Shown here: positions 44,930 through 51,570 of the stretch, one piece after another
Numbering within the stretch: the stretch's first letter is position 1
How the letters are laid out: every line of letters begins with the position of its first letter
Assembly: GCA_009797885.1 (NCBI GenBank)
Contig: WNKP01000002.1
Span: 248,001 to 312,000 of the forward strand
Length of the DNA stretch: 64,000 nucleotides
Direction: 5' to 3'
From: Flavobacteriaceae bacterium GF1
GTDB taxonomy: Bacteria; Bacteroidota; Bacteroidia; Flavobacteriales; Flavobacteriaceae
Program-made: the position numbers and the translations under genes
The notes under the pieces: model-generated
Told to the model about the DNA's origin: nothing
Databases searched by the model: none
Seen by the model: only the letters and a program-made list of their open reading frames with translations

Positions 44930-46003
44930 ATGAAACATCTTTCCGCCGGACTTATGTGCGTGTTGCTGTATTGCTGTTCGGTTACGCTATCGGCGCAAAA
45001 TAGTAGCAACATGGGGCAGGATATTTATGTATGCCCACCGTGCAACAGAAAGTGTGATGATCTAACGTTCAACGAACCCGGGGTTTGTAAACATTGCAAT
45101 ATGAAGCTTATCAAGAGATCCGAACTGGAAATGTTTCCTGAGGTTGAAAGGACCAAAGTAGGGCTCTATCTACAATCTGGTGTTGAAATCCTTGATTTGG
45201 CGGGACCACTAGAAGTTTTTGCCTATGCAGGTTATGAAGTGGTTACCATTTCCAAAACCAAAGAACCCATTTATGCCCAGGGCATCCTTACCGTTATTCC
45301 AGATTATGATTTATCCGATGCCCCAGCGGTAGACATCTTGGTATTTTTTGGCGGTAATGCCGTGTTATCCTCAAAGGATGAAGCGCTCATAGATTGGATA
45401 AAATCCCAAAAAGAAACCAAATACCATTTTTCTGTGTGTAGTGGGGCCTTAATCCTGGCAGAGACCGGTATTCTGGATAACAAACAGGCCACCACCTTTA
45501 GATACAATTTGGATGTTTTGGAACAGAACTATCCCAAAATTGAAGTTCTGCGCGGTGCCAGATATGTGGATAATGGCACGGTTGTGACTACTGCAGGGGT
45601 TTCAGCGGGAATTGACGGTGCCCTCCATATGGTCGCCAAATTGGAAGGATTGGAGACCGCAGCGCAAACGGCACTTTATATGGAATATGACTGGACACCC
45701 AACAATGGAGTGGCCTTTGTAGGGGACAATCCCTATAGCCATATGAAGGACGCCACTACTTTAAAGGAATATGAAGGAATATATAGCTCAAGTTCCCTTA
45801 GAACATTCGTCTTGAAATTTGATGATGAAAATGAGGAGTTGCTTTTAAAAAAGGAGAACAGGCATTATCCTGTTTTCTACATCGGTACGGATAAATTCCT
45901 TACCTCACACGCGTCCCACCTTATCACATTTAAAAGAAATAAAAACAACCAAATCATCGGTTTTGAAACCACCGAATACAACGAAATTTTTAATAAAAAA
46001 TGA
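44930..46003 (+). CDS. exported DJ-1/PfpI protein with N-terminal metal-binding motif
   Basis: 357 residues: signal peptide (1-22), then a Cys-rich heavy-metal-binding-type motif with Cys35, Cys38, Cys42, Cys53 and Cys56 (YVCPPCNRKC, VCKHCNMK), then a DJ-1/PfpI domain (about 72-255; EILDLAGPLEVFAYAG, FSVCSGALILAETGIL with the nucleophile Cys, TTAGVSAGIDGALHM), then a beta-rich tail of about 95 residues. The DJ-1 part is the isonitrile-hydratase-like subtype. An exported version fused to a metal-binding motif is unusual. Confidence 0.88.
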   Translation: MKHLSAGLMCVLLYCCSVTLSAQNSSNMGQDIYVCPPCNRKCDDLTFNEPGVCKHCNMKLIKRSELEMFPEVERTKVGLYLQSGVEILDLAGPLEVFAYAGYEVVTISKTKEPIYAQGILTVIPDYDLSDAPAVDILVFFGGNAVLSSKDEALIDWIKSQKETKYHFSVCSGALILAETGILDNKQATTFRYNLDVLEQNYPKIEVLRGARYVDNGTVVTTAGVSAGIDGALHMVAKLEGLETAAQTALYMEYDWTPNNGVAFVGDNPYSHMKDATTLKEYEGIYSSSSLRTFVLKFDDENEELLLKKENRHYPVFYIGTDKFLTSHASHLITFKRNKNNQIIGFETTEYNEIFNKK

Positions 46004-46198: not shown

Positions 46199-47446
46199 AT
46201 GAAAAAAGTATGGGTTTCACTTTTTGTGCTACTGTTGGCCACGGCAACAAACGCCCAAAAAATGGACATAAAGAACATTGCCATTTACTTACAGGATAAT
46301 GTGGAAATATTGGATTTTGCAGGGCCCATGGAAGTATTTATAATCGCTGGCTACAATGTATATACGGTTGCAAAAACCACCAAGCCCATGAAGGCCATGC
46401 ATTACCTGACCGTTGTGCCCGATTATTCCATCGCCAATGCCCCCATACCGGATGTTGTGGTGTTTGTGGGAGGCGGGGATATCGCTGCTGCCAAAGACGA
46501 AAAGGTGAAAAATTGGGTAAAGAAAGTGACACCAAAGTCCCAATTAAGTTTAACGGTTTGCACGGGGGCTTTCTTTTTGGCCGAAGCCGGTTTCCTGGAC
46601 AGTAAGATTGCGACCACCTATCATAAGTCAATAGACTACCTACAAAGTGAATACCCTAAAATAGATGTTCGTAGGGATGTGAGATTTGTGGACAACGGCG
46701 AAGTAATCACTACAGCGGGAATTTCCGCAGGAATTGATGGAGCGCTACACCTGGTTTCAAAACTAAAGGGGGAAAAATTTGCCTTGGAAGTAGCCAAAAA
46801 CATGGAATATGATAAGTGGATTCCGGGAGAAGGGTTGATAGTACAAGATGAAAAACTTAACAAAAATGAAGGGAAAGATATAGGAAGGTTTTTGGATGCC
46901 AATCTGGACAACCTCTATCCGGGTGAGCTATTGAACCTATCGTCAAAGTTAAATGCAATGGGAATGTACGGAGAGGCTGAAAAAGCCATAAAATATGTGA
47001 TAGCAACCATGTCGAATCCAGATATTGGTACGTATGGGTTTTTAAGGGAAAATTACGTTCAGCAGCATAAGGAAGTCCCTATGACCAGTCAACAATTCAT
47101 GGATATCATCAAGAACAAAGGCGTGAAACTAGCAGAAAAGGCCTTTGTGGAGCAAAATAAAAAGTTCAAGGATTGGGTGTTCGTAAACCCTGACGATATG
47201 ATCATGTATGGTTATACCGACCATTATTTAAAGGGGAAAATACAAAGTGCCTTTGAAATCCAAAAGTTGGCTAAAAAGATGTTTCCAAACAATGCTTATG
47301 TAACTTATGTGTTGGGGGTTTACCATGAAAAAGAAAACAAAATTGGCGACGCTGTCAACTATTACAAAGAAGCACTTCAATATGACCCCAACTTTGCCAT
47401 GGCTAAGGAGAAATTGGAGGCTTTGATGGCACGGGAAAAGACTTGA
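46199..47446 (+). CDS. exported DJ-1/PfpI protein with C-terminal TPR-like region
   Basis: 415 residues: signal peptide (1-19, TATNAQ), DJ-1/PfpI domain (about 24-210; EILDFAGPMEVFIIAG, LTVCTGAFFLAEAGFLDS with Cys, TTAGISAGIDGALHLV), and a helical C-terminal region with a TPR-like pair (LGVYHEKENKIGDAVNYYKEALQYDPNFAMAKEKLEALM). A close paralogue of the preceding gene in the DJ-1 part but without its metal-binding motif. The 195 bases between the two genes show nothing I can support. Confidence 0.88.
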   Translation: MKKVWVSLFVLLLATATNAQKMDIKNIAIYLQDNVEILDFAGPMEVFIIAGYNVYTVAKTTKPMKAMHYLTVVPDYSIANAPIPDVVVFVGGGDIAAAKDEKVKNWVKKVTPKSQLSLTVCTGAFFLAEAGFLDSKIATTYHKSIDYLQSEYPKIDVRRDVRFVDNGEVITTAGISAGIDGALHLVSKLKGEKFALEVAKNMEYDKWIPGEGLIVQDEKLNKNEGKDIGRFLDANLDNLYPGELLNLSSKLNAMGMYGEAEKAIKYVIATMSNPDIGTYGFLRENYVQQHKEVPMTSQQFMDIIKNKGVKLAEKAFVEQNKKFKDWVFVNPDDMIMYGYTDHYLKGKIQSAFEIQKLAKKMFPNNAYVTYVLGVYHEKENKIGDAVNYYKEALQYDPNFAMAKEKLEALMAREKT

Positions 47447-48036: not shown

Positions 48037-48126
48037 TACCAACGATATTCAGCCTTTGGAAACACACTCGTTATTTCACGGAAAGTTTTTCCAAAGCGAC
48101 CCCTTTCCCATCTGAGATTGTTCGTT

Positions 48127-48171
48127 CTTAAACCAGTTTAAGCGTTTTGATTCGATTCACAGCTATTTTTC
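48127..48171 (+). promoter_or_regulatory. Crp/Fnr-type site plus -7 box, copy 1 (before the regulator gene)
   Basis: Perfect palindrome CTTAAAC-CA-GTTTAAG at 48127-48142, then 21 bases, then TATTTTTC (48164-48171), one off TAnnTTTG. Two more copies with the same 21-base gap lie at 48882 and 50535. The regulator start codon is 139 bases further on; nothing else is recognised in the 274-bp gap. Confidence 0.72.
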
Positions 48172-48310
48172 GCTGGAAATGGAACACAGCTTTTACTTTG
48201 ACGGTCCTATTTATGGGGTTCATGGTACGGCGGGCTTTTTATCCGTGCCTGGAAAATATAAGTTTTAAGCGATGGCTTTTATCTTTGTATAGTGGGTTGA
48301 AACACTGAAA

Positions 48311-48886
48311 ATGTTGTTGCAGTTTTTAGAACATATCAGAAATTTTACCGAATTCAAGAAGGAGGATTTTGAAAGAATCCAGGAATATTTTGACATTGGG
48401 ATGTATGGCAAAAAAGATATCATTCTTTCAGCCGGCTCAAAATGTACCTACAATTATTTTGTGTTACAAGGCTGTTTACATATGTTCTTTACCGGGGAAA
48501 ACGGCATTCAGCGAACAGTTCAGTTTGCCATTGAAGATTGGTGGATGACGGATAATTTGGCTTACCAAAAAGGAAAAAACACCGATTTTACCATCCAGGC
48601 CGTAGAGAACACCACGCTTTTGAAAATCAGCCGTGAAAATCAGGAAGAACTGCTTAAAGAGTTTCCGGCTTTGGAAACCTATTTTAGAAAAATCTACGAG
48701 ATTTCATATGGGGCCTCTTTGATGCGAATGAAGTATGCATTCGATTTCACCAAGGAAGAGATGTACTGTCATTTCACGGATAGCTTTCCTGAATTTGCCC
48801 AACGTGTACCTCAATATTTAATCGCTTCATTCTTGGGCCTTACCCCTGAATACGTAAGTGAAATAAGAGCTAAACGGCGTTCTTAA
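48311..48886 (+). CDS. Crp/Fnr family transcriptional regulator
   Basis: 191 residues. N-terminal cyclic-nucleotide-binding-type barrel (GKKDIILSAGSKCTYNYFVLQGCLHMFF, about 15-120) and a C-terminal HTH-containing part with RVPQYLIASFLGLTPEYVSEIRAKRR. Typical of short Bacteroidota Crp/Fnr proteins that lack the cAMP-contact residues of Escherichia coli CRP. Palindromic sites lie before this gene, across its own stop codon, and before a DJ-1 gene, so it probably controls this neighbourhood. Confidence 0.93.
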   Translation: MLLQFLEHIRNFTEFKKEDFERIQEYFDIGMYGKKDIILSAGSKCTYNYFVLQGCLHMFFTGENGIQRTVQFAIEDWWMTDNLAYQKGKNTDFTIQAVENTTLLKISRENQEELLKEFPALETYFRKIYEISYGASLMRMKYAFDFTKEEMYCHFTDSFPEFAQRVPQYLIASFLGLTPEYVSEIRAKRRS

Positions 48887-48926
48887 ACCAGTTTAAGTTT
48901 TTTGCCTTGACCATGAAATAGTTTTG
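48882..48926 (+). promoter_or_regulatory. Crp/Fnr-type site plus -7 box, copy 2 (before the AhpD-like gene)
   Basis: CTTAAAC-CA-GTTTAAG at 48882-48897 spans the TAA stop of the regulator gene; 21 bases later is TAGTTTTG (48919-48926), a perfect TAnnTTTG. The next start codon follows after 21 bases. The site centre would be about 41 bases before the transcription start, as in class II CRP activation. Confidence 0.8.
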
Positions 48927-48947
48927 CCTCAAACAAAATTATGATCA

Positions 48948-49382
48948 ATGGAAAGAATACAGATTGATGCTGTTCAACCAACAGCCTATGAAGCAATGTT
49001 CGCATTGGAAGGCTACCTGGCCAAATCAAAATTAAGTGCCACCCATAAAAATCTGATCAAGATAAGGGCCTCTCAAATCAATGGGTGTGCATTTTGTATT
49101 GATATGCATAGTTCAGAAGCGGTAAGGGAAGGCGAAAGTCCAAGACGCATTTATGTTTTGGATGGTTGGAGAAAGACAGAATTGTTCTCCAAAGAAGAGA
49201 GGGTCATTTTAAAAATGACGGAAGAATTGACGGTTTTGGATAAAAATGGACTAAGCGAGGCTACCTATTTGGAGGCAATTGCACATTTTGATGAGGAAAC
49301 TTTTTCACAAATCGTGATGACCATTGTGACCATAAATGCATGGAATAGAATTGCTATTGCGACGCATAAACCATTGCCATAA
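48948..49382 (+). CDS. carboxymuconolactone decarboxylase / AhpD-like protein
   Basis: 144 residues with the AhpD signature GCAFCIDMHSSEA (Cys-x2-Cys-x3-His), flanked by KLSATHKNLIKIRASQIN and a C-terminal AWNRIAIATH. These proteins are thiol-dependent peroxidase partners or decarboxylases; the family name alone does not decide. Directly downstream of the Crp/Fnr regulator and its palindrome. Confidence 0.92.
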   Translation: MERIQIDAVQPTAYEAMFALEGYLAKSKLSATHKNLIKIRASQINGCAFCIDMHSSEAVREGESPRRIYVLDGWRKTELFSKEERVILKMTEELTVLDKNGLSEATYLEAIAHFDEETFSQIVMTIVTINAWNRIAIATHKPLP

Positions 49383-49478
49383 GGATAAATTGGGAACAGT
49401 GGTTGGTCAATCGGTGTTCTTTAGGAAGGAAAAGTCCCAGTGCCCCAAAAGCAAAGATCAATCCCAAACGGAAATACC

Positions 49479-49904
49479 ATGCTTACAGACAGCAAAGTGA
49501 ATGTAAAAGGTAAACTGGCCGCCCATTGGGCATGTCTTATGTTTTTGTACCTATACGCAGATTATTTTGAGCTGAAAACCCCTGGTAAAATAGAACAGCT
49601 AATGAACCTGAAAACCCCAGTTGGTGATACGACACCCGAACTACTGGTGATTTTCTCCCTTATCTTGATCGTACCTTCATTGATGGTTCTTTTTTCCGTT
49701 CTGTTAAAGCCAAAAATCAATAAATGGTTCAATTTAATTGTAGCTTTGATATGGTCCTCCATGTCCGTTATACTAATCGTGGGGGAGCTAAATGATTTAG
49801 GAGGATGGTATACCTTCTATCTGTTATACCAATTTGTGGAAGTATTGGTATTTGGTTCAATTATCTGGCATGCCTGGAATTGGCCCAAGGATGAACGAAG
49901 TTGA
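49479..49904 (+). CDS. four-helix membrane protein, DUF6326-like
   Basis: 141 residues from the ATG at 49479 (an upstream GTG would add 13 residues of poor quality). Four hydrophobic helices with KLAAHWACLMFLYLYADYFELKTPG at the start, a pattern I associate with DUF6326 proteins. Function unknown. Likely in one transcription unit with the AhpD-like and DoxX-like genes. Confidence 0.7.
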   Translation: MLTDSKVNVKGKLAAHWACLMFLYLYADYFELKTPGKIEQLMNLKTPVGDTTPELLVIFSLILIVPSLMVLFSVLLKPKINKWFNLIVALIWSSMSVILIVGELNDLGGWYTFYLLYQFVEVLVFGSIIWHAWNWPKDERS

Positions 49905-49939
49905 CATCAATGGAAATACAAATCTTATAGTTCTTTTTT

Positions 49940-50422
49940 ATGAAACCCTTACTTGTTTTAGTCATTTCTTTTGTTCTAACGGCATTGGTGTACAGGCTTT
50001 TTAGAAAAGAAAACAACTTTCCTTTGGCGGGAAGAATTGCAATGGCAGTCATGTTGGTCTTTACCGCAATGGGACATTTTATGTATATGGAGGGAATGCA
50101 GGCCATGATTCCCGAATGGATTCCATTCGGAAAGGAGTTGGTGCTATTGACGGGGATTATGGAGGTGCTATTTGCCATCGGTTTATTACTTCCCAAATAT
50201 CGAGTAAGGGTAGGTTGGGTATTGATCGTTTTCTTTGTGATGGTTTTGCCCGCCAATATCTATGCTGCCCTGGAAAATGTGAATTATCAAACGGGAGGGA
50301 ACGATGGTAATGGTTTAAACTACCTATGGTTTAGAATACCACTTCAAGCATTGTTCATTGTTTGGGTTTATTTATCGGCCATACGCAAATCAAAATCAAT
50401 TCATTTCAAAGCTGAAAATTGA
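49940..50422 (+). CDS. DoxX-like membrane protein
   Basis: 160 residues, four membrane helices, with the FTAMGHFMYMEGMQAMIPEWIPFGKELVLLTGIMEVLFAIGLLLP block and VLPANIYAALE, both typical of DoxX-like proteins. DoxX proteins are linked to redox or detoxification in other bacteria, which fits the AhpD-like neighbour. Confidence 0.85.
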   Translation: MKPLLVLVISFVLTALVYRLFRKENNFPLAGRIAMAVMLVFTAMGHFMYMEGMQAMIPEWIPFGKELVLLTGIMEVLFAIGLLLPKYRVRVGWVLIVFFVMVLPANIYAALENVNYQTGGNDGNGLNYLWFRIPLQALFIVWVYLSAIRKSKSIHFKAEN

Positions 50423-50534
50423 TGTTGATTTGGTGATGTATGGGTTTCCATTTCTTTTAAAAATAAATATTGTGAATCGGTGCCATGGGTAGTGTCGTTT
50501 CCTGCTTTTTGAACGGGAATAAATTGCCCTCTTT

Positions 50535-50579
50535 CTTAAACCAGCTTAATTTTTTCAAGTTTTCCCAGCAATAATTTTG
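50535..50579 (+). promoter_or_regulatory. Crp/Fnr-type site plus -7 box, copy 3 (before the DJ-1 lipoprotein gene)
   Basis: CTTAAAC-CA-GCTTAAT at 50535-50550 (two changes from the palindrome), 21 bases, then TAATTTTG (50572-50579), a perfect TAnnTTTG. The DJ-1 lipoprotein start codon is 92 bases further on. Confidence 0.72.
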
Positions 50580-50671
50580 TGTCACTGTTTTAGCGCTTAG
50601 AACGGATATCACTAATGTTATTAATGATGGGGCTCCTTTTGATGGAACCCCCAACAAAACTTTAAATCAAA

Positions 50672-51478
50672 ATGAAAATAGTAGCTCTAAAAATGACCAT
50701 CTTAAGCATTCTTACGCTTGGTATTGCCTTTATGGCGGTTAGTTGTAATACAACAAATGAAGGTGGAAAAGACGAAAACGAAGTAGAAGGGGAAAAAGTG
50801 GCAAAGGTTGGTTCCGATACCTTGACCAAGCATTTAAAACCCTTTAGGAAGGATTTACCTACGATTGGCCTCCTGATTTATGACGGCGTACTTACAACGG
50901 AGGTCACGGCCACGGCCGATGTCTTTTCCAAGCCTACAAAAGAGGGTCTTCAACTGTTCAATGTCATCACCATTGCTGAAAGGGAGAACGTAATTATTGC
51001 CGAAGAAGGTCTTAAACTAATGCCGGATTATACTTTTGAGAATTGCCCAAAATTAGAGGCACTTTTCATTCCCAGCGCTTACGATATGTACGCCCAGATA
51101 CATAATGAGGATATCGTAAGGTTTATTCAGGAGAAGAACAAGGAAACCAAATACACGGTGAGCAATTGTGCAGGTGCCCAGTTGGTTGGTAAATCCGGGA
51201 TAGCGGATGGAAAAAACATTGTGACCTATATTGGAGGGGGTAAACAGCTTCAAATGGACTATCCCAATTTAAAGGTCAATGATGATGCCAAGGTCACTTA
51301 TGTAGCGGATGGTAAGTTCAGTTCTTCGAACGGAAATTTGGCAAGTTATATATCTGCCTTGATTTTGGTTGAAAAAATAACAAGTCCCGAACATCGCGAA
51401 TTTGTGGAATCCTATTTGTATCTGGACCGGCTTCAAAACTGGACCGGGGAAACGGGAGCTGTTCTTATGGCGAAGTAG
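50672..51478 (+). CDS. DJ-1/PfpI family lipoprotein
   Basis: 268 residues with a lipoprotein signal peptide (Cys about residue 25 in FMAVSCNTT), a charged linker, and a DJ-1/PfpI domain (TIGLLIYDGVLTTEVTATADVF, YTVSNCAGAQLVGKSGIADG with Cys at the elbow, SSSNGNLASYISALIL). The acidic residue of the LD-x-x-GP motif in the other two is not conserved here (TTEVTATAD), so it is a more distant member. Third exported DJ-1 protein of the region. Confidence 0.88.
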   Translation: MKIVALKMTILSILTLGIAFMAVSCNTTNEGGKDENEVEGEKVAKVGSDTLTKHLKPFRKDLPTIGLLIYDGVLTTEVTATADVFSKPTKEGLQLFNVITIAERENVIIAEEGLKLMPDYTFENCPKLEALFIPSAYDMYAQIHNEDIVRFIQEKNKETKYTVSNCAGAQLVGKSGIADGKNIVTYIGGGKQLQMDYPNLKVNDDAKVTYVADGKFSSSNGNLASYISALILVEKITSPEHREFVESYLYLDRLQNWTGETGAVLMAK

Positions 51479-51570
51479 GGTTTTCAAATTAAAAACCACC
51501 GCATATGCAATGGGCCGACATCACCGTTCAAACATGTTTTTTATGAACAAATTTGAACGTAAGAATCGTG

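Follow-up and report, generated by a model that had tools for sequence, protein, structure and literature searches.

Probable operators around a small Crp/Fnr-type regulator gene

The question raised by this locus is whether a small Crp/Fnr-type regulator of the Bacteroidota carries its own binding site at the end of its gene, and which genes that site would serve. The window, a stretch of 64,000 nucleotides (nt) from Flavobacteriaceae bacterium GF1 (contig WNKP01000002.1, positions 248,001 to 312,000), contains the regulator gene (48311..48886, plus strand), followed on the same strand by an ahpD-like gene and, further on, by a gene for a DJ-1/PfpI-family lipoprotein. From the sequence comparisons described here, we consider it highly probable that the predicted regulator binds the palindrome CTTAAACCAGTTTAAG and switches on ahpD, together with the DJ-1 lipoprotein gene in this genus. 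This reading is carried by the conservation of the site, its place and its spacing, and by a test on copies in trans, all of which were observed directly in the genomes compared.

A first-pass annotation had placed the palindrome at 48127 and at 48882, and a version of it with two changed bases at 50535, each 21 bases before a named promoter box, and the letters confirm this. The predicted main operator, CTTAAACCAGTTTAAG with 0 mismatches (48882..48897, plus strand), spans the regulator stop codon TAA and lies 21 nt before TAGTTTTG (48919..48926, plus strand), the -7 box of the predicted ahpD promoter, with a predicted start at 48931. The second operator, CTTAAACCAGCTTAAT with 2 mismatches (50535..50550, plus strand), precedes the DJ-1 gene and lies 21 nt before its -7 box TAATTTTG (50572..50579, plus strand), with a predicted start at 50584. 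A further copy of CTTAAACCAGTTTAAG, also with 0 mismatches, is found upstream of the regulator gene (48127..48142, plus strand), 21 nt before the poor -7-box candidate TATTTTTC (48164..48171, plus strand), and its function is uncertain.

Seven matches to the palindrome with up to three mismatches were found in the window against 1.14 expected, and none of 100 shuffles reached seven; these matches include the two exact sites read on the opposite strand and two unrelated matches with three mismatches. Throughout the source genome (G000; 5.28 Mb in 62 contigs), exact copies of CTTAAACCAGTTTAAG occur only at 48127 and 48882. The strict pattern, which joins the palindrome, the 21-nt spacing and the box NAnnTTTG, is found in that genome at two places, 48882 and 50535; the copy at 48127 fails it because TATTTTTC ends in C.

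Conservation of the site at the stop codon

From 556 confirmed related stretches in named genomes, the best 80 were used to assess conservation, a sample of the closest. A site at or just after the regulator stop codon was present in 72 of these 80 loci, in 49 cases exact, in 17 with one mismatch, in four with two and in two with four, taking either strand of the consensus. In 69 the site starts two bases before the stop codon, the same offset as in the window, and in the other three it starts 8-13 bases after it. A NAnnTTTG box stands at 21 nt in 55 of the 72, is one letter off in 13, stands at 22 nt in two and is absent in two. An inverted repeat of about 16 base pairs (bp) is thus present and conserved, which supports the Crp/Fnr-type operator that the annotation had proposed. 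Beforehand, a missing or unspaced palindrome in orthologous loci had been named as the outcome that would speak against the regulon; the ahpD site is retained in the 72 loci given above, and at the DJ-1 site both letters and spacing are kept in the two congeners that carry this block of genes (G002 and G007).

The source organisms include Flavobacterium, Chryseobacterium, Allomuricauda, Pedobacter, Sphingobacterium, Algoriphagus, Adhaeribacter, Niabella and Sunxiuqinia, which we take to come from several classes or orders within the phylum. The module of regulator, site and target is an old one in the Bacteroidota and is found widely there. The site is mostly noncoding, so its conservation is not accounted for by constraint on the protein sequence. 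The coding part is itself uniform, with a serine codon TCT followed by the stop codon TAA in 75 of the 79 sites whose first base lies two bases ahead of the stop.

A palindrome at a gene end, followed by a run of T, could also be a weak transcription terminator or RNA hairpin and no protein site at all. The T-rich stretch behind the stop-codon palindrome (64-79% T at positions 17-22 of 107 aligned sites) and the folding of the stretch around 48882 at -6.5 kcal/mol are in keeping with this. The corresponding z-score is only -1.5, though, and at 48127 and 50535 the predicted stem is not formed by the palindrome. Across the 72 sites, changes at paired positions comprise 16 that break the pair, three wobbles and one compensatory change, and neither the fixed 21-nt distance to a -7 box nor copies in trans before ahpD are features of a terminator. 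The hairpin was rejected on the folding test and the broken pairings, and we regard it as very improbable.

Copies in trans and co-occurrence with the regulator

If the site belongs to the target and not to the end of the regulator gene, a copy is expected before ahpD wherever that gene lies elsewhere. The eight named loci that have no site also have no ahpD-type frame within the fetched locus, and all eight genomes have a copy (seven exact, one with one mismatch) before an AhpD-like gene at another place. These copies (L144-L148, L157, L159 and L165) start 65-68 nt before the AhpD-like gene and 21 nt before [CG]AACTTTG.

The exact 16-mer occurs in 53 of 395 genomes of the order, and the reversed control in one. 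A search of 395 genomes of the phylum for the pattern with the 21-nt box gave 21 places in 17 genomes, and its control gave none. Sixteen of the 21 places coincide with the stop codon of such a regulator; the remaining five comprise the DJ-1 site of the window (L266), two DoxX genes (L247 and L267), an AhpD-like gene (L263) and L248.

Several paralogs of the regulator are encoded in many genomes, so that the site might be bound by another DNA-binding protein than the adjacent regulator. This would fit poorly with their joint occurrence: among the 48 genomes common to the listings of regulators and of sites, the site is found in five, the same five that encode a close regulator (E-value <= 1e-50), and the remaining 43 have neither. 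It is also opposed by several paralog subfamilies that carry letters of their own at their own gene ends, and another binder seems to us scarcely credible.

A number of observations weigh against the proposed binding of CTTAAACCAGTTTAAG by this regulator, or against the bare palindrome as a sign of function. Six exact 16-mers in Sphingobacterium genomes (L149-L153 and L156) have neither a -7 box nor an evident target, and one of the six is the sole exact copy of genome G452. In the eight genomes with copies in trans, 25 rows with up to one mismatch were obtained against nine for the reversed control; together with the boxless copies, these control rows mean that a bare 16-mer is no proof of function. 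With up to two mismatches, the source genome gave nine rows for the pattern and 15 for the reversed control, so loose matches alone are meaningless and weight is given only to exact or well-placed copies. L248 (genome G691) has a strict site and box 224 nt before an unrelated-looking frame of 344 residues, possibly a further target. On the protein side, Pfam gave no match to a helix-turn-helix domain in the regulator, and its AlphaFold model is only moderate (predicted local distance difference test score, 67), with C-terminal helices at residues 168-175 and 179-190; homology to the solved structure 3dn7 reaches residue 188.

As a separate observation, the boxless 16-mer of five Sphingobacterium genomes (L149, L151, L152, L153 and L156) lies about 500-630 bases after a frame that ends in KKEVNLKEM.

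Promoter geometry and proposed mechanism

In the start-site map of Flavobacterium psychrophilum, as given in PMC9723704, the -7 box TAnnTTTG covers -12 to -5. Counted from a box so placed, the palindrome would cover -49 to -34 with its centre at -41.5, which is the position of class II CRP sites of Escherichia coli according to PMC5957442. The class II-like spacing of about 41 bases before the start, which the annotation had claimed, is thus recovered, with start positions predicted from the box.

The regulator, presumably as a dimer, would bind CTTAAACCAGTTTAAG through the half-site CTTAAAC. At the main operator it would sit on the last bases and the stop codon of the gene that encodes it, with the centre at -41.5 relative to the ahpD start, and would take the place of the -33 element and recruit RNA polymerase, that is, class II activation at a Bacteroidota promoter with the -7 box NAnnTTTG. 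The second operator would drive the DJ-1 lipoprotein gene. Judging by the target families, the signal may have to do with peroxide, thiol or carbonyl stress.

We infer activation rather than repression. Palindromes near -35 can repress, and in that reading the regulator would keep RNA polymerase from the ahpD and DJ-1 promoters until the signal releases it. The centre at -41.5 is, however, the position of a class II activator. In addition, the would-be -33 region is T-rich, and only 42% of the 107 aligned sites have T as the first base of the box, which would fit promoters that depend on an activator and is expected where promoters need help. A repressor operator is accordingly judged unlikely, although less so than a hairpin or another binder.

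The regulator protein

The regulator has 191 residues, with the recognition helix TPEYVSEIR. A beta-barrel domain of the cyclic-nucleotide-binding type is present (PF00027, E-value 2.5e-9), and the nearest solved structure is 3dn7 (E-value 3.5e-57 over residues 5-188). By its domain, the protein belongs to the Crp/Fnr superfamily, and its sequence indicates that it is neither CRP nor FNR. It would not be a CRP because the residues of the cAMP pocket are not kept, TD standing for GE and NT for RS in a weak alignment to 4ev0 (E-value 0.62); it would not be an FNR because it lacks N-terminal cysteines, the alignment having no cysteine before residue 45. Of 87 proteins of the AhpD clade, 81 have C45 and 63 have C55; among the paralogs, 53 of 103 share C45. 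On these counts, a cysteine-based redox sensor is a possible reading that we do not claim.

One copy of the regulator gene (L133, genome G294) has an apparent early stop in the recognition helix, and the operator, the box and ahpD are still present behind it; that genome has a second exact site besides L133.

Paralogous regulators with other letters

The geometry was also examined in paralogs with a letter-blind test, in which a quasi-palindrome of 16 bp near the stop codon was followed by NAnnTTTG and spacings of 5-40 were counted. In 110 loci a single spike appeared at 21 nt, with 30 loci (seven of them the AhpD orthologs L001-L007) and a next value of three; in the 80 named loci, 53 fell at 21 nt and the next value was two. 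The maxima over 50 shuffles were two and one, respectively. Upstream of the start codon, the 21-nt spacing was found in 2 of the 110 and in none of the 80. When the limits were loosened, such a site was present in 34 of 103 paralogs, and up to ten Crp/Fnr paralogs above threshold are encoded in one Bacteroidota genome.

The letters vary with the recognition helix. TPEY[LV]SEIR is paired with CTTAAAC, SPEF[VI]SK with CTTAAT, HEFLSK with GTTGAAC, S[AP]ESLSR with ATTGAT and several helices of the form [TS]PEYLS-x-[LV]R with CTTAAGA. Within the AhpD clade, a change of E to K in the helix accompanies the change of TTAA to TTGA, in one half-site (L068 and L083) or in both (L080). An extra search for orthologs of the K type in 295 genomes of the class gave seven matches, all with E in the helix (six SEIR, one SELR), and in every one of them the stop codon carries the site. 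Among 107 regulators with a site, all 17 with G4 or C13 in the operator have K or R at the helix position that we take to be equivalent to R185 of CRP and R213 of FNR; such operators are found in none of the 80 regulators without K or R, and ten with K or R lack them. Covariation of helix and operator is suggestive in these sequences.

Other observations count against such a code or against its generality. Counted on the tree, two (starred) to five independent pairs of changes were concordant and none opposed, which is not significant, since significance needs at least six concordant independent changes. In the paralogs L016 and L207 the helix TPEYLSEIR is found with CTTAAGA, which shows that operator positions 6-7 are not set by the helix alone. 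Finally, 69 of the 103 paralogs have no 21-nt site near the stop codon. Taking both sides together, we lean towards the view that a large family of small Crp/Fnr proteins in the Bacteroidota is self-addressed: each member would have its own binding site at, or a few dozen bases past, the end of its gene and 21 nt before the next -7 box, a portable switch for different genes (AhpD, DoxX, NDH2, DJ-1) with a specificity code that may be read from genomes.

A tandem layout was found for regulators of the TKEFLSK type and near variants (L010, L013, L014, L017, L022, L025, L026, L028, L168, L176 and L181). The palindrome, of the type TTAA[AT]C..., lies 59 nt before the -7 box in 11 of the 11 loci where the pattern found both; in some of these loci the class II place is taken by a second, weaker copy, the strong site being about 23 bp further upstream. 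Two other paralogs (L237 and L238), with the helix SRETLSRL, are followed by TGTGA-N6-TCAC[AG] palindromes, which resemble the E. coli CRP site. At L161 and L163, another gene of the Crp/Fnr type is followed by the perfect palindrome CTTAAACTAGTTTAAG without a 21-nt box, which may be a terminator or a site of another type.

Predicted target genes

The predicted main target (48948..49382, plus strand) encodes an AhpD-like protein of the carboxymuconolactone decarboxylase family with a CAFC motif (PF02627, E-value 3.1e-15). It is followed by genes for a DUF6326 protein (49482..49904, plus strand; PF19851, E-value 4.2e-13) and a DoxX-like membrane protein (49940..50422, plus strand; PF13564, E-value 0.00085, under the Pfam cut-off). 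Both are presumed operon members, the DUF6326 gene being on the same strand with no operator match of its own. The predicted second target is the DJ-1/PfpI-family lipoprotein gene (50672..51478, plus strand; PF01965, E-value 4.5e-9). The annotation had joined the four genes in one local regulon; the comparisons support this for the predicted ahpD and DJ-1 promoters, and DUF6326 and DoxX-like enter it only as presumed followers in the ahpD operon.

Seventy-one named loci have a readable gene close behind the site, usually one for an AhpD-type peroxidase: this first gene encodes a carboxymuconolactone decarboxylase/AhpD protein in 63, DoxX in six and an NDH2-like protein in two, and AhpD comes next in all six loci that begin with DoxX. 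BLASTP found no similarity between the DoxX-like protein of the window and one DoxX of a Chryseobacterium locus.

The variant letters, the spacing and the box of the DJ-1 site are identical in G000, G002 and G007. Of 99 genomes searched, 11 have relatives of the DJ-1 lipoprotein gene. A paralogous regulator with the helix SPEF[VI]SK directly precedes this gene in G005 (64% identity) and G027 (48%), where the gene carries the CTTAAT-type operators CTTAATCTTAATTAAG and CTTAATTAAGATTAAG, 21 nt before a box; G029 has the gene in second place after a regulator of this type, with no site of its own. The same kind of target thus takes the letters of the neighbouring regulator, with the geometry kept. 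For the DJ-1 genes of G048, G059, G055, G037 and G025, neither a site within 600 nt upstream nor such a regulator on the same strand of the flank was found.

Two further proteins with DJ-1/PfpI domains are encoded upstream in the window (44930-46003 and 46199-47446), with no operator match before either; one has a weak heavy-metal-binding domain and the other has tetratricopeptide repeats.

The copy upstream of the regulator gene

The annotation had also read the copy at 48127 as evidence of autoregulation, which the comparisons do not support as stated. The site lacks a proper -7 box, with TATTTTTC in the window and TATTTTCA as its counterpart in G002. Across the 80 named loci, the closest match within 400 nt ahead of the regulator gene differs at three positions, in one locus, and in all the others the best match differs at four or more. 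A perfect TAnnTTTG, TATCTTTG (48279..48286, plus strand), lies a short way upstream of the regulator ATG and is the likelier promoter of this gene, as far as its letters tell.

G000 and G002 share a block of five genes (48121-51487) between flanks that differ. It starts 6 nt before the 48127 copy and ends 9 nt past the DJ-1 gene. The block appears as if moved as a cassette, with this operator copy as its left edge. The site could then be a remnant, either a copied 3' end or a recombination junction, instead of an autoregulatory operator, as its place at the edge of the block, the poor box and the missing counterparts in the named loci would suggest. The 16-mer is intact in both species, which argues the other way; the two species agree over 94% of the whole leader that follows it (181 of 193 columns), so the intact copy says little, and the G007 contig ends before the corresponding position. 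We hold a remnant to be about evenly balanced against an operator, a question separate from the other alternatives weighed here. Given the poor box, the lack of upstream counterparts, the position at the block edge and the likelier promoter at TATCTTTG, autoregulation through this copy is treated here as a possibility.

Relation to known systems and significance

The CRP site of E. coli is a 16-bp palindrome of the same 5-N6-5 form, TGTGA-N6-TCACA, and CRP binds the cAMP phosphate through the GE...RS residues of its pocket motif. Here the palindrome is CTTAA-N6-TTAAG, the promoter has the Bacteroidota -7 box NAnnTTTG, the operator lies inside the stop codon of the regulator itself, and the phosphate-binding residues are not kept, as far as the weak 4ev0 alignment goes. 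FNR, a 4Fe-4S oxygen sensor with an N-terminal cysteine cluster, shares the Crp/Fnr fold, and its code from helix to half-site underlies the comparison with TTGA: paralogs have the E-x-x-S-(R/K) helix pattern, often with TTGA half-sites where K or R is present. Unlike FNR, the regulator has no such cluster, and the AhpD clade mostly has E at the position equivalent to R213 (84 of 87), with TTAA. The structure 3dn7, a 'Cyclic nucleotide binding regulatory protein' presumably from Cytophaga hutchinsonii, belongs to the same family and has the helix TPEYLSEIR; it is a structure entry, whose listing names neither operator nor target.

The part of PMC13277301 that deals with a Crp-like protein of Riemerella names no operator. 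No description of this regulator or operator was found in the open-access literature, a weak negative because the usual spelling Crp/Fnr is unsearchable. The parts are of known kinds; within this limited search, no literature match was obtained for an operator in the regulator's own stop codon that is conserved through much of the phylum and repeated with other letters in paralogs.

Bacteroidota genomes encode many Crp/Fnr paralogs of unknown specificity. The class II geometry known from E. coli would here be placed on a divergent promoter, and the binding site would be under a double constraint, being also the end of a coding sequence (serine TCT and stop TAA). Switch, site and target may be read together directly from the sequence, and, if operators sit at a fixed place at the ends of their own genes, the targets and the helix-to-DNA code would become predictable for many regulators at once.

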